From positions 111,452 through 175,451 of the forward strand of contig JAPPGZ010000092.1 of NCBI GenBank assembly GCA_028874905.1: 64,000 nucleotides of DNA, given 5' to 3'. The notes beneath the pieces are model-generated. The model had not been told where the DNA came from, ran no database searches, and worked only from the letters and a program-made list of their open reading frames with translations. Position 1 is the stretch's first letter, and each line of letters begins with the position of its first letter. Below, piece after piece: positions 23,629 to 44,872 of this stretch. The translations under genes were made by a program, and so were the position numbers. This DNA is from Gemmatimonadota bacterium (GTDB lineage Bacteria; Gemmatimonadota; Gemmatimonadetes; Longimicrobiales; Gaopeijiaceae).

Positions 23629-24522
23629 TCAGGGCGTGACGGTCACCCGCACGTAGGCGTTCGTCCAGCAGCACTGGTCGCCACCGGTGCTGTCGTTCGC
23701 AGCCCAGTTGTCGATGCGCGCGCGCAGCACGTACTCGCCGGGCTCGCTGAACACGACGCTCGCGGTGGCCTCGCCGGTGCCGCCTTCCACCACGACGCGC
23801 CTGGGATCGACCGTGACTGCGCCGGCGGGTCCCTGGTGCTTGAACCAGCTGAGGCCGACGTTGACGACCTGGTTGACCATGTCGTCGGGTGCGCGGACCG
23901 ATACCTCTTCCGTCCACACCGTCAGCGTGAGCGGCTCGCCCACCGTGGCGGTGCGCGGCTCCCCCCACACGCCCTGAATGTGCTGGCCCGCCGGCCCGTC
24001 CGGGCTGAACCGCACGACCGGCGACACCGATCCCATGGCCCGCGGCCCGTAATCCAGTTGTAGCGCCGGGATCCCGACGCGCCCCGGGGTCGCGTTGGTG
24101 TATCCGTTCGCCGTGATCGTCCACACCACCGCCTGCTCCCCGTCCTCGTAGGAAGCCGGCACCGTGACGTGGAAGACGCCCCGGTCCCTGCGCGGACGCA
24201 CCGGGAAGTGGGTGGGCTGCATGCCGTCGAACTCGGCCGGCTCGATGAAGTTGTCGGGACCGACCGGGATGTCGAGGACCTGCTCGCTGTTCAGGTTGAA
24301 GAACCCGAACGAGAGCGTGAAGGTGCCGTCGTCGTTGCGGTACCAGCCCTCGAAGAAGGGGGCCACCTCATCCCCCTTGGGCAGGATCGGGGCAAGAGGC
24401 AGCCGCTGCCGCTCCTGGGCGTGCAGGGACACGCCCGCCGCCGCACACACAACGAGCACGAGGAGCGGCGCCGGCAGGATCCTCGCGGCGGCCGCAGTCC
24501 GCGCCACAGATGGGCCGTGCAT
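23629..24522 (-). CDS. secreted beta-sandwich partner of the heme/monooxygenase-like protein (cassette A)
   Basis: 297 residues with a signal peptide ending SLHAQ. ATG 24522 shares its A with the upstream stop (TGATG), so the pair is translationally coupled. The first 130 residues (VAPFFEGWYRNDDGTFTLSFGFFNLN, PTHFPVRPRRDRGVFHVTVP) match the first part of the protein encoded at 43778-44872. The rest looks like Ig-like strands ending GEYVLRARIDNWAAND...CCWTNAYVRVTV. No known enzyme motif. A structural, substrate-presenting or redox-accessory role beside its partner is inferred from conserved pairing. Confidence 0.75.
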   Translation of the reverse strand: MHGPSVARTAAAARILPAPLLVLVVCAAAGVSLHAQERQRLPLAPILPKGDEVAPFFEGWYRNDDGTFTLSFGFFNLNSEQVLDIPVGPDNFIEPAEFDGMQPTHFPVRPRRDRGVFHVTVPASYEDGEQAVVWTITANGYTNATPGRVGIPALQLDYGPRAMGSVSPVVRFSPDGPAGQHIQGVWGEPRTATVGEPLTLTVWTEEVSVRAPDDMVNQVVNVGLSWFKHQGPAGAVTVDPRRVVVEGGTGEATASVVFSEPGEYVLRARIDNWAANDSTGGDQCCWTNAYVRVTVTP

Positions 24523-25913
24523 CAGCGGCTGTCGGTGCCGTCGTTGCCGTTGCGGCTGCTGTCGTCTTCGCTGTCGGTCGCGAGCTTGGCTTCCCGCTCC
24601 TCGACCAGCTTCTGGTAGCCTTCCTCGGTCAGGTGCGTGACGGCGATCCACGCGTGCGACATCTCGTCCATCGTGCGCGAGCCGCGCGCATACCAGATCT
24701 CGGGGTCCGGCGTGAGTTCGTTCTCGGCGGTGTTGTCGTACCATCCGGTCAGCACGACCACGGTGCCCGTCGGAAGGAGCGGCGCGACGTCGTCCTCGTA
24801 GATGTAGCTGTGGTGCCAGCGGGCGTCGAAGTCCGTGACCATGCTGATCAACTCGATATCGCCATCGGGGTACACCGCCTGTATCGACATCGCATGGAGG
24901 TGCACGTGGCCGTGCGGCTGGTAGCTGTCGATGCGCACCGGGTGGTCCCACCGGTGAAAGCCCTGGGTCATCGCGGTCCCGCCGGGCGCCAGCGCGATGT
25001 CGCCCCGAAGCGGATAGAGGCGCAGGTCCTGCTGGAACTCCGGCTCATAGCCCTCCTCGTGGAACCAGACGCCCAGCTCCACCTGGTCCCCCGGCACGTC
25101 GTATCCCATGGGGTAGTAGTGGGCGTCCCATTCGATCATGTCGTCCGCCTTCAGGAGCCGCGCGGCATCGCCCGGCACGATCTCGCCGACCTTGCCCATG
25201 GCGTACTCGGACAGGCTCTGGATGCGCCGGTACTGGCCCTCCTCGTTGAGCCGCAGGAGGCGCGGGATCGCGTGATGGACGACCTGCCGGCCGGCCGGGA
25301 AGGACGGACGCGTCTCGAACGCCATCGCCCACTTGTCCTCGTCAAGCCCGGTCGGCATCCGCGGACGCCACCAGGTGTCGCCGCCTTCTGCGGGCACGTC
25401 GAACGGCTTCGACTTGATCACGTGATCGGGCGGGCCAAGGATGTCCTCGAGCTGCCATTTCTGCTCGTTCGGCCACTCGATCGGCGGCGGCAGGTCGGCT
25501 GGGTCCCCCTCGGGCGCTCCGGCGTCCACCCACGCCACGACGGTCTCGATCTCCTCGTCGGTCAGCCGCCAGTCGTCCTTGATTTCCTGGATTCCGACCC
25601 CTGTGTCGAGGTGGTACGGAGGCATGAGGCGCTTCGAGACGAGATCTCGCGCACGCGATGCATAGCGGCGTACCTCCTGGTACGTCATGAGCGACATGGG
25701 ACCCACGGACGCCGGCCGGTGGCAGATCTCGCAGTTGGCCTGGAGGATGGGGGCGATATCCTTCGAGAAGGTCACCCCGTTCCCGTGCGCACGGCCGTTG
25801 GCCGCGGATTGCTGTGCGGCGACGGGAAGGGCGGTCAAGGTCGCCGCGATGGCCAGGGCCAGGACGGCCGGGGGGGTTGACATGCGGCCGGGTCGGACGT
25901 GCTGGCTGCGCAT
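24522..25913 (-). CDS. c-heme plus copper type II monooxygenase-like protein (cassette A)
   Basis: 463 residues from ATG 25913, chosen because AAGGAGG lies 8 bases upstream; the signal peptide ends VAAQQ. One c-type heme site CEICH (61-65) is followed by a small cytochrome domain (LMTYQEVRRYASRARDLV...MPPYHLD). The C-terminal 300 residues show a pattern like peptidylglycine/dopamine monooxygenases: VVHHAIPRLLRL, HGHVHLHAMSI, and GTVVVLTGWYDNTAENELTP. Copper ligation by these His residues is inferred, not shown. Expected location is the periplasm. A related gene is at 42208-43773. Confidence 0.75.
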   Translation of the reverse strand: MRSQHVRPGRMSTPPAVLALAIAATLTALPVAAQQSAANGRAHGNGVTFSKDIAPILQANCEICHRPASVGPMSLMTYQEVRRYASRARDLVSKRLMPPYHLDTGVGIQEIKDDWRLTDEEIETVVAWVDAGAPEGDPADLPPPIEWPNEQKWQLEDILGPPDHVIKSKPFDVPAEGGDTWWRPRMPTGLDEDKWAMAFETRPSFPAGRQVVHHAIPRLLRLNEEGQYRRIQSLSEYAMGKVGEIVPGDAARLLKADDMIEWDAHYYPMGYDVPGDQVELGVWFHEEGYEPEFQQDLRLYPLRGDIALAPGGTAMTQGFHRWDHPVRIDSYQPHGHVHLHAMSIQAVYPDGDIELISMVTDFDARWHHSYIYEDDVAPLLPTGTVVVLTGWYDNTAENELTPDPEIWYARGSRTMDEMSHAWIAVTHLTEEGYQKLVEEREAKLATDSEDDSSRNGNDGTDSR

Positions 25914-42207: not shown

Positions 42208-43773
42208 ATGTCGATCGCAAAGCTGTCCGGAACCTCGCGGCTGGCGGGGGCTCTCACCCTGGCGGGCGCCGCCGCCATGGGCCTCACCGCCACGGCCCTC
42301 GCACCGCAACCGCTCGCCGCGCAGACGGAAGCCGGGGCCGGCGTAACCGCACCCGCCGCCAACCGCGACGTCACCTTCAACCGCGACATTGCGCCGATCC
42401 TGCAGCGCGCCTGCGTGCGCTGTCACCGCGACAACGGCGTGGCCCCGATGTCGCTCGTCGCCTACGACGAGGTGAAGGACTACGCGAGCCGGATCGCGCG
42501 TCGCACGCAGATCCGTGACCGCGCCGGTGCAATGCCGCCGTGGTACGTCGAGAAGGACATCGGCATCCAGCATTTCAAGGACGACATGTCGCTGGAAGAC
42601 CGCGAGATCGCCGCGCTGGAGCAGTGGTGGCGCGCCGGAATGCCCGAGGGGGACCCGGCGGACCTGCCGCCCCCGCTCGAGTTCAACGACGACGTGGTGT
42701 GGGTCGCGGGCGAACCCGACCTGATCGTCCGCCTCCCCGAGGTGCTGGTCAAGGGCGACGTCCCCGACTGGTGGGGCGACATCGAACCGATCCCGACGGG
42801 CCTCACCGAAGACCGCTACGTCAAGTCGGTCGAGATCCGCGAGGTCAACGACGTCGGCCGCAACCCCGACGGCGGACACGAGGGCCGCCACACCGTCGGC
42901 GGCCGGTTCGTGGTGCACCACATGATCTGGAGCACGCGCGTGCCCGCCGAGGAAGCGGGCGACGGCCCGAGAAGCACGAGCTGGCCCGTCCACGAAGTGG
43001 GCCGCGAGCCCGACATCTTCGACGAGGACGCAGGGCGCCTCCTGCGAGCCGGCTCCTCCGTCGTTTCCAACTCGCTGCACCTGCACTCCAATGGCCGCGA
43101 CACCCGCGCCCACCTCGAGATCGGCTTCCGCTTCCACCCGCCGGACTACCAGCCCAAATACCGCCGCGCCTTCTTCGGCCTGGGCAACGGCAGCGACATC
43201 GACATCCGCGCCGGCGAGGCGGGCCAGGAACTGCACGCCTACCAGGTCCTCAACCAGCACACCAAGATCGTCACCTTCGAGCCCCACCTGCACGCACCCG
43301 GCATGCGCATGTGCCTCGAGGCGATCTGGGGCTTCAACGTCGAGACGATCAACTGTGTCGGCTACGACCACAACTGGGTGCGCGGCTACACCTACGCCCA
43401 GGACCACCAGCCCCTGCTGCCCAGGGGGACGGTCCTGCACATCATCGGATACATGGACACCTCGGAAGCGAACCGCAACGTGCCCGACACCCGCAACTGG
43501 CAGGGGTCGGGCAACCGCTCCGTTGCCAACATGTTCATCGACCTCGGTATGCGCGTTGCCCTCACCGACGAGCAGTTCGTCGAGGAGATGGCGCTCCGCC
43601 GCGAGCGTCTCGCACTCGGTCCCAACGACCATGTGATCGGGTGTCCGCTCTGCATGGTGATCCCCGAGAACGGGAATCCCCGCTACTACGCCGGGGATGG
43701 TGGTGGGGCCGGAGGCCAGAGCGGCCAGGCCGGCAATTCGACGGGCGCGAACCGTGGTCGCGGGAATCGGTAG
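42208..43773 (+). CDS. c-heme plus copper type II monooxygenase-like protein (cassette B)
   Basis: 521 residues from ATG 42208, with GGAAAGAAG upstream and a signal peptide ending PLAAQT. One heme motif CVRCH (69-73) followed by APMSLVAYDEVKDYASRIARRTQ, very close to cassette A. The C-terminal part shows VVHHMIWSTRV, LHLHSNGRDTRAHLEIGFRF, EPHLHAPGMRMCLEAIW and GTVLHIIGYMDTSEANRN. The HHM, HxH and late Tyr-Asp-x-(S/T) pattern resembles peptidylglycine-type copper monooxygenases. The tail is Gly/Asn-rich. Copper and monooxygenase activity are inferred; heme attachment is well supported. Confidence 0.78.
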   Translation: MSIAKLSGTSRLAGALTLAGAAAMGLTATALAPQPLAAQTEAGAGVTAPAANRDVTFNRDIAPILQRACVRCHRDNGVAPMSLVAYDEVKDYASRIARRTQIRDRAGAMPPWYVEKDIGIQHFKDDMSLEDREIAALEQWWRAGMPEGDPADLPPPLEFNDDVVWVAGEPDLIVRLPEVLVKGDVPDWWGDIEPIPTGLTEDRYVKSVEIREVNDVGRNPDGGHEGRHTVGGRFVVHHMIWSTRVPAEEAGDGPRSTSWPVHEVGREPDIFDEDAGRLLRAGSSVVSNSLHLHSNGRDTRAHLEIGFRFHPPDYQPKYRRAFFGLGNGSDIDIRAGEAGQELHAYQVLNQHTKIVTFEPHLHAPGMRMCLEAIWGFNVETINCVGYDHNWVRGYTYAQDHQPLLPRGTVLHIIGYMDTSEANRNVPDTRNWQGSGNRSVANMFIDLGMRVALTDEQFVEEMALRRERLALGPNDHVIGCPLCMVIPENGNPRYYAGDGGGAGGQSGQAGNSTGANRGRGNR

Positions 43774-43777
43774 CGGG

Positions 43778-44872
43778 GTGGGAGGAAGGTTCGCGGTAGC
43801 CGCGCTGCCCGGAGTGCGGTGCCTGGGCGCGATTGGGGCGCTGCGTCGGGCGGCCCCTGCGACCGCTCGGCTCGCGATCCCGCTGCTGGTCGCCCTCGCG
43901 ATCCCCCCCGAAGCCGCCGCCCAGACCTATCAGCGCGGCCAGAACGTGGCGCCTGCGTTCGAGGGCTGGGAGCGCAACGAGGACGGCTCGTTCAGCTTCC
44001 TGTTCGGCTACATGAACCGGAACTGGCTCGAGGAAGTCGACGTGCCGGTCGGCGAACACAACGCGTTTTCGCCCGGCCCCGCGGACCGCGGGCAGCCCAC
44101 GCACTTCCTCCCGCGCCGCAACCGCTTCGTGTTCAAGGTCCGCGTTCCCGCCGATTGGGGCGACCGGGAACTCGTGTGGACGCTCACGAGCAACGGCGTC
44201 ACCGAGCGCGCCTACGCGACGCTTCGGCCCGACTACGTCGTGGACAATGTCGTGATCATGTCCGAGACGGGCGCGCTGGGCGCGGGATCGAGCAATGCCC
44301 GGATGCGGGCGAACGAGCCCCCGACGATCACGCTCGAAGGACCCGTCGCGCGCCAGGCCACCGTAGGCGTCCCGCTCGGCATCACGGTGCTGGTGGAAGA
44401 CGATGGCCTGCTGAGATCGCGCCGCCGACCTCCGGGCCCGCCACCCGAGACCGCCGCAGACTCCGCGCGCGCCGACTCGATCTGGAACGCGCCGCCCACC
44501 TTCAGCCGCAGACAGCTTACGCCCCCGTCCCGGATCACGGTGCAGAAGGCCAACGGTTTGTTCATGTCGTGGTTTCTGTACCGCGGCGAAGGAGCGGGAG
44601 ACGAGACCGGGGACGGCGGGAGTTCTGCGACCGGTGAGAGCCGCGTGACCTTCGATCCGCCTCAGATCAAGGTGTGGGAGGACACGCGCGCCGGGGCCAA
44701 CTCACCCTGGGCGCCGCTGTGGGTGCCGCCCGAACTGCCCGAAGGCGGGCTGTGGACCGTGAACGTGACCTTCGACCGCCCGGGGACCTACCTGCTGCGC
44801 GGGCGCGCGGACGACGGCGGGCTGTTCGCCGACGTGGAGGTCACGGTCACCGTGAGGCCGGTGGCGAGTTAG
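43778..44872 (+). CDS. secreted beta-sandwich partner of the heme/monooxygenase-like protein (cassette B)
   Basis: About 364 residues from GTG 43778; GTG 43754 and GTG 43814 are alternatives, and the last gives the neatest signal peptide (ending EAAAQ). Shares VAPAFEGWERNEDGSFSFLFGYMNRN and PTHFLPRRNRFVFKVRVP with the cassette A partner. Then PPTITLEGPVARQATVGVPLGITVLVEDDG and a terminal GTYLLRGRADDGGLFADVEVTVTV suggest Ig-like domains. Gene order, strand relation and tight spacing to its partner are the same as in cassette A. Function unknown. Confidence 0.72.
   Translation: MGGRFAVAALPGVRCLGAIGALRRAAPATARLAIPLLVALAIPPEAAAQTYQRGQNVAPAFEGWERNEDGSFSFLFGYMNRNWLEEVDVPVGEHNAFSPGPADRGQPTHFLPRRNRFVFKVRVPADWGDRELVWTLTSNGVTERAYATLRPDYVVDNVVIMSETGALGAGSSNARMRANEPPTITLEGPVARQATVGVPLGITVLVEDDGLLRSRRRPPGPPPETAADSARADSIWNAPPTFSRRQLTPPSRITVQKANGLFMSWFLYRGEGAGDETGDGGSSATGESRVTFDPPQIKVWEDTRAGANSPWAPLWVPPELPEGGLWTVNVTFDRPGTYLLRGRADDGGLFADVEVTVTVRPVAS

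Follow-up and report, generated by a model that had tools for sequence, protein, structure and literature searches.

Nature of the two-gene cassette

The 64,000-nucleotide stretch of DNA analysed here (the window) carries, in two places, a gene for a protein with a c-type heme motif next to a gene for a secreted partner protein. A preliminary description, guided by motifs like those of peptidylglycine monooxygenases, had proposed that such a pair forms a two-component periplasmic oxidase or monooxygenase. The question raised by the locus is thus whether the heme protein belongs among the copper monooxygenases and, if so, what its heme and its partner contribute. The genes concerned are as follows.

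42208..43773, + strand: heme protein of clade A, 521 amino acids (window copy 1)
43778..44872, + strand: partner protein of clade A, 364 amino acids (window copy 1)
24522..25913, - strand: heme protein of clade B, 463 amino acids (window copy 2)
23629..24522, - strand: partner protein of clade B, 297 amino acids (window copy 2)

In copy 1 the partner gene follows the heme gene on the same strand at a distance of 4 bp, and in copy 2 the start of the partner overlaps the stop of the heme gene by 1 bp, again on the same strand. The two pairs are homologous, as had been claimed, with the heme proteins sharing 33% identity over 448 aligned positions (E 2e-62) and the partners 37% over 211 (E 1e-28). 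The motifs picked out earlier, CxxCH, HH, HxH and the DT/DNT region in the first genes and EGW, DG, QPTHF and RR in the second, were all found, the latter set in both window partners. The view that the cassette occurs twice holds for the window only; a search of the whole genome (4.05 Mb, 111 contigs) revealed four heme/partner pairs, together with a fifth c-heme/monooxygenase protein that is a distant, unpaired relative. On contigs C104 and C106 the order is reversed, the partner gene lying 14 bp ahead of the heme gene or overlapping it. Thus, with the partner first in two of the four genomic copies, the proposed conservation stands for the pairing but not for the gene order. A search for carriage of the cassette on plasmids gave no match.

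Predicted fold of the heme protein

Neither the heme protein nor the partner matched Pfam or NCBIfam above cut-off. Against the Pfam copper-monooxygenase models the copy 2 heme protein scored at best E 0.28 (11.1 bits, compared with a cut-off of 23), and three of 86 family members matched the Cu2_monoox models at E up to 1 (best 0.0038). The gathering scores of PF01082 and PF03712, below which the paired heme proteins fall, are thresholds of library models and not structural features, and with these models below cut-off a link to PHM needs structure or a profile bridge. An AlphaFold model of the copy 1 heme protein, built from 86 homologues (pLDDT 82, pTM 0.80), provided the first. The best 28 matches of this model in the PDB were all DBH or PHM (Foldseek, E 8.5e-10 to 1.2e-5, probability 1.00), DBM/DBH (PDB 4zel) being the best of them and having the same predicted copper ligands. 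The TM-scores were modest (0.28-0.36 by query, 0.34-0.57 by target) and sequence identity to PHM/DBM was low, at 8-13%; the predicted model nevertheless displays the two-domain beta-sandwich fold of these enzymes.

The profile bridge was provided by unpaired bacterial c-heme/PHM proteins: a profile-against-profile alignment (hhalign) of the paired family with these spans 361 columns at E 3e-50 and brings the ligands into register. In these proteins (L097, L098, L012 and L093) CxxCH is followed by a PHM-like domain whose ligands align with those of the paired family. One such bridging protein exceeds the Pfam Cu2_monoox_C cut-off and aligns with rat PHM at VHH, HY and DEM, with weak statistics (E 0.015); L012 and L093 (with YceI) exceed that cut-off, whereas the paired family does not. 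PHM was reached only by the structure search and through the bridging protein; searching PDB sequences with the family profile missed it. The PHM-like fold anticipated in the preliminary description is thus borne out by the predicted model; the Pfam profiles suggested as a check stayed below cut-off, and the connection to PHM was made through structure and the bridge. The predicted fold and ligands place the heme protein in the PHM/DBM superfamily, as a fusion of a c-heme domain to that fold. One unpaired relative (G000:C80, L012:5332-7461) is a fusion of a YceI domain to a c-heme/PHM-like protein that lies above the Cu2_monoox_C cut-off, and genes for a PQQ dehydrogenase and an FAD-type oxidoreductase are found near it.

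Predicted copper ligands and the c-type heme

The features of the heme proteins are listed below.

Copy 1, residues ~1-39: probable Sec signal peptide, identified by eye
Copy 1, C69-x-x-C72-H73 and M109: c-heme domain with its likely distal Met
Copy 1, residues ~170-450: PHM/DBM-type domain (AlphaFold, Foldseek, hhalign)
Copy 1, H237, H238 and H291: predicted CuH ligands
Copy 1, H360, H362 and M442: predicted CuM ligands
Copy 2: signal peptide, CxxCH, the same six predicted copper ligands, a DEM-type CuM methionine and no CPLC tail

C69, C72, H73, M109 and all six predicted copper ligands were invariant across 100 paired homologues, of which 98 were complete and two contained gaps. The His-His plus third His expected of CuH (H237, H238 and H291) was present in 100/100, and the HxH plus Met expected of CuM (H360, H362 and M442) in every row with letters at those positions. 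The hallmarks of a class I cytochrome c were equally constant, CxxCH occurring in 99 of the 99 rows with letters there and M109, the likely distal heme ligand, in 100/100. Apart from these positions, the only invariant His, Met or Cys in the 86-sequence alignment is M81. All 86 family members match Cytochrome_CBB3, although weakly (best E 3.5e-5), and the window's genome encodes cytochrome c assembly proteins.

In rat PHM the copper ligands are H107/H108/H172 (CuH) and H242/H244/M314 (CuM) (PMC6123673). The six predicted ligands of the heme protein match this pattern, His-His...His followed by His-x-His...Met, and its CuM Met is in register with the DEMC of PHM through the bridging protein. 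The residue two before HxH is E358 in clade A and Q or R in clade B, a position that we take to be that of the substrate-binding Arg240 of rat PHM. The occurrence of Glu, Gln or Arg here, in place of Arg240, points to a substrate that, at least in clade A, would not be bound through its carboxylate as in PHM, and to a difference between the clades. A CP-x-C motif, which in copy 1 forms the C-terminal CPLC tail (residues ~478-482), occurs in 66 of the 75 clade A heme proteins and in none of clade B.

Proposed mechanism and electron supply

The textbook dicopper enzymes PHM and DBM, known mainly from animals, draw their electrons from ascorbate there; DBM, which uses ascorbate as reductant, also has an N-terminal DOMON domain. 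The paired heme protein resembles PHM (PF01082 plus PF03712) in its predicted two-domain beta-sandwich, its six copper-ligand positions and its secretion, but is only 8-12% identical to it, falls below the Pfam cut-offs and, unlike PHM, carries an N-terminal c-heme domain and has a dedicated partner protein. Compared with DBM, the heme c domain stands where DOMON would be, and a separate Ig-like partner is added. Taken together, the homology, the predicted fold, the conserved ligands and the pairing make it probable that each cassette specifies a dicopper monooxygenase with the PHM/DBM fold, secreted and probably periplasmic, which takes in electrons through its own heme c and has an Ig-like protein as its dedicated partner. 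Such an enzyme would bind copper and act as an oxygenase. The single covalent, His/Met-ligated heme c would receive electrons from a quinoprotein dehydrogenase or from the cytochrome c pool of the periplasm and pass them to CuH (H237/H238/H291), while CuM (H360/H362/M442) would bind O2 and hydroxylate a C-H bond of the substrate. For the partner, the most likely role is to dock on the enzyme and set substrate access, stability or localisation. PHM takes one electron per copper from ascorbate (PMC6123673); if electrons do enter through the heme, then the heme would replace the role of ascorbate in animal PHM/DBM.

The possible quinoprotein donor bears on the genomic context of the pair. Members of the PQQ dehydrogenase cluster occur at ~8-10 of some 80 loci compared with roughly 2 expected, an expectation that reflects the density in the window's genome (about nine such genes) and may differ for other genomes, so that the linkage is only suggestive. 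The partner on C106 of the window's genome starts 4 bp after a PQQ dehydrogenase gene. At some loci the product alcohol may pass straight to the neighbouring PQQ dehydrogenase, the cytochrome domain of which would return an electron; such a periplasmic hydroxylase/quinoprotein relay would be loosely comparable to the one in methanotrophs, but built on another enzyme fold. We raise only tentatively the broader idea that these proteins constitute an undescribed, large class of bacterial dicopper hydroxylases, ascorbate-free and fed by the respiratory chain through the fused heme c, with an Ig-like subunit and, at some loci, a PQQ relay.

It could be argued that a copper enzyme of the same fold acts instead as a peroxygenase or oxidase, with H2O2 driving CuM and the heme draining electrons or protecting the active site. 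PHM itself can bypass O2 and reductant when supplied with H2O2 (PMC6123673), electrons can travel in either direction through a fused heme c, and the PQQ dehydrogenase genes near several pairs offer a possible respiratory context. The full two-copper ligand set is, however, always kept, yet a peroxide-driven enzyme would have little need of CuH, and we regard this alternative as improbable.

The partner protein and neighbouring genes

The features of the partners are listed below.

Copy 1, N terminus: probable signal peptide
Copy 1, residues ~57-150 and 183-360: two Ig-like beta-sandwich domains
Copy 1, conserved motifs: EGW, DG and GQPTHF-PRR
Copy 2, C terminus: CCWTN motif

A structure search with the AlphaFold model of the clade A partner (pLDDT 83, pTM 0.77) returned generic Ig-fold matches only. 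The EGW, DG, QP and RR positions are common to the partners of both clades, while CCW is found in 25/25 clade B partners and 0/75 of clade A. The partner profile matches the CuA domains of COX2 weakly (E 0.02), and some family members display weak similarity to YtkA, as is also the case for PKD; all three similarities are too weak to identify the partner. A CuA-like partner was rejected, given the weakness of that match and the lack of a metal-ligand set conserved in both clades.

Copper does feature in the surroundings of some pairs. In ten gammaproteobacterial loci, several of which are syntenic and hence not independent, the pair has CopC genes nearby, and in L034 and L037 CopC is directly downstream on the same strand; a CopD-like gene, a weak match, also occurs near gammaproteobacterial pairs. 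These genes, together with the faint COX2 CuA and YtkA resemblances of the partner, might indicate a non-catalytic periplasmic module that binds, delivers or senses copper or heme on a PHM fold, with the partner as a docking domain. The absence of an obvious partner metal-ligand set common to both clades argues against such a role. In addition, the occurrence of up to 18 matches in a single genome looks more like substrate diversification, which also better fits the two deep clades and their divergent CuM surroundings (E358 versus Q or R), and we consider a copper-handling function quite unlikely.

Peptide amidation (PHM plus PAL) was likewise considered and rejected. The genes predicted around the window pairs include none that is PAL-like, and NHL beta-propeller genes, of a generic kind, lie near the pair at only 4 of about 80 loci (L038, L048, L049 and L079); the L038 protein matches the PAL of the animal amidating enzyme at E 1.5e-19, but other NHL proteins match it better. 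A recurring secreted set accompanies the pair in L055, L056, L059, L075, L079 and L080, and comprises a DUF1587/1592/1595/1588/1585 cytochrome-like protein, a DUF1552 protein, an ankyrin protein and an uncharacterised PRTxxGxPDLQG family. The DUF1592/DUF1552, ankyrin and PRTxxGxPDLQG neighbours recur in Acidobacteriota and others.

Pairing across genomes

In 101 Gemmatimonadota genomes, which contain 79 full-length heme proteins and 80 partners, a partner adjoins 78 of the 79 heme proteins on the same strand, with the heme gene first in 50 pairs and the partner first in 28. Conversely, 79 of the 80 partners adjoin a heme protein, so that a partner family found mostly apart from it, which would have spoken against the original proposal, is not what these genomes contain. 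Among 21 distant, lower-scoring c-heme/PHM relatives in the same genomes just one has an adjacent partner, and it is a family member cut off by the start of a contig. In a cross-phylum sample, 80 loci in Gemmatimonadota, Acidobacteriota, Gammaproteobacteria and Actinomycetota were picked by the heme protein alone; 73 of the 77 informative loci were paired, and three further loci end at a contig edge. A few heme proteins (L065, L072, L081, one in L038, and G050:C456) stand without a partner next to them, so that some lineages may not strictly need it. Of the two-component periplasmic monooxygenase originally proposed, the predicted PHM/DBM fold and the pairing are upheld; the two proteins may act as components of one enzyme.

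The heme-protein family comprises at least 574 matching stretches in at least four phyla of environmental bacteria, and goes unrecognised by Pfam and NCBIfam. No description of the heme protein/partner pair was found in a search of open-access literature. Since the heme c fusion is also present in unpaired relatives, the novelty lies in the paired family: in how large it is, in the near-constant presence of the partner and in the division into two clades. This study places a predicted PHM/DBM-like active site in a large family of environmental bacteria, with a built-in heme as the probable electron inlet. With such a family, a defined donor could be used to test how electrons enter the PHM dicopper site. 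The family also points to a further type of oxidation chemistry in the periplasm of bacteria from marine, freshwater and soil habitats and from sponges.

Two old clades

The gene trees of the heme protein and the partner display an identical split into clades A and B, with support of 100 in both. From these trees, window copies 1 (clade A) and 2 (clade B) represent two old clades and not a recent duplication. Distances between partners correlate with those between heme proteins (0.95 overall, 0.76 and 0.88 within clades), and gene order has switched at least four times with the pairing kept, a count that is still 4 when L052, for which the order call is ambiguous, is omitted. Jointly inherited cassettes can yield concordant trees without interaction, but the persistence of the pair through these switches, the strength of the correlation and the lack of a nearby partner in 20/21 distant relatives make it very improbable that the pairing merely reflects operon inheritance, with a secreted partner of unrelated function. 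Clade A pairs in three metagenome-assembled genomes titled Gammaproteobacteria (L020, L021 and L022) are nested among Gemmatimonadota sequences and have shared neighbouring genes, a placement that may reflect horizontal transfer, misbinning or a wrong title.
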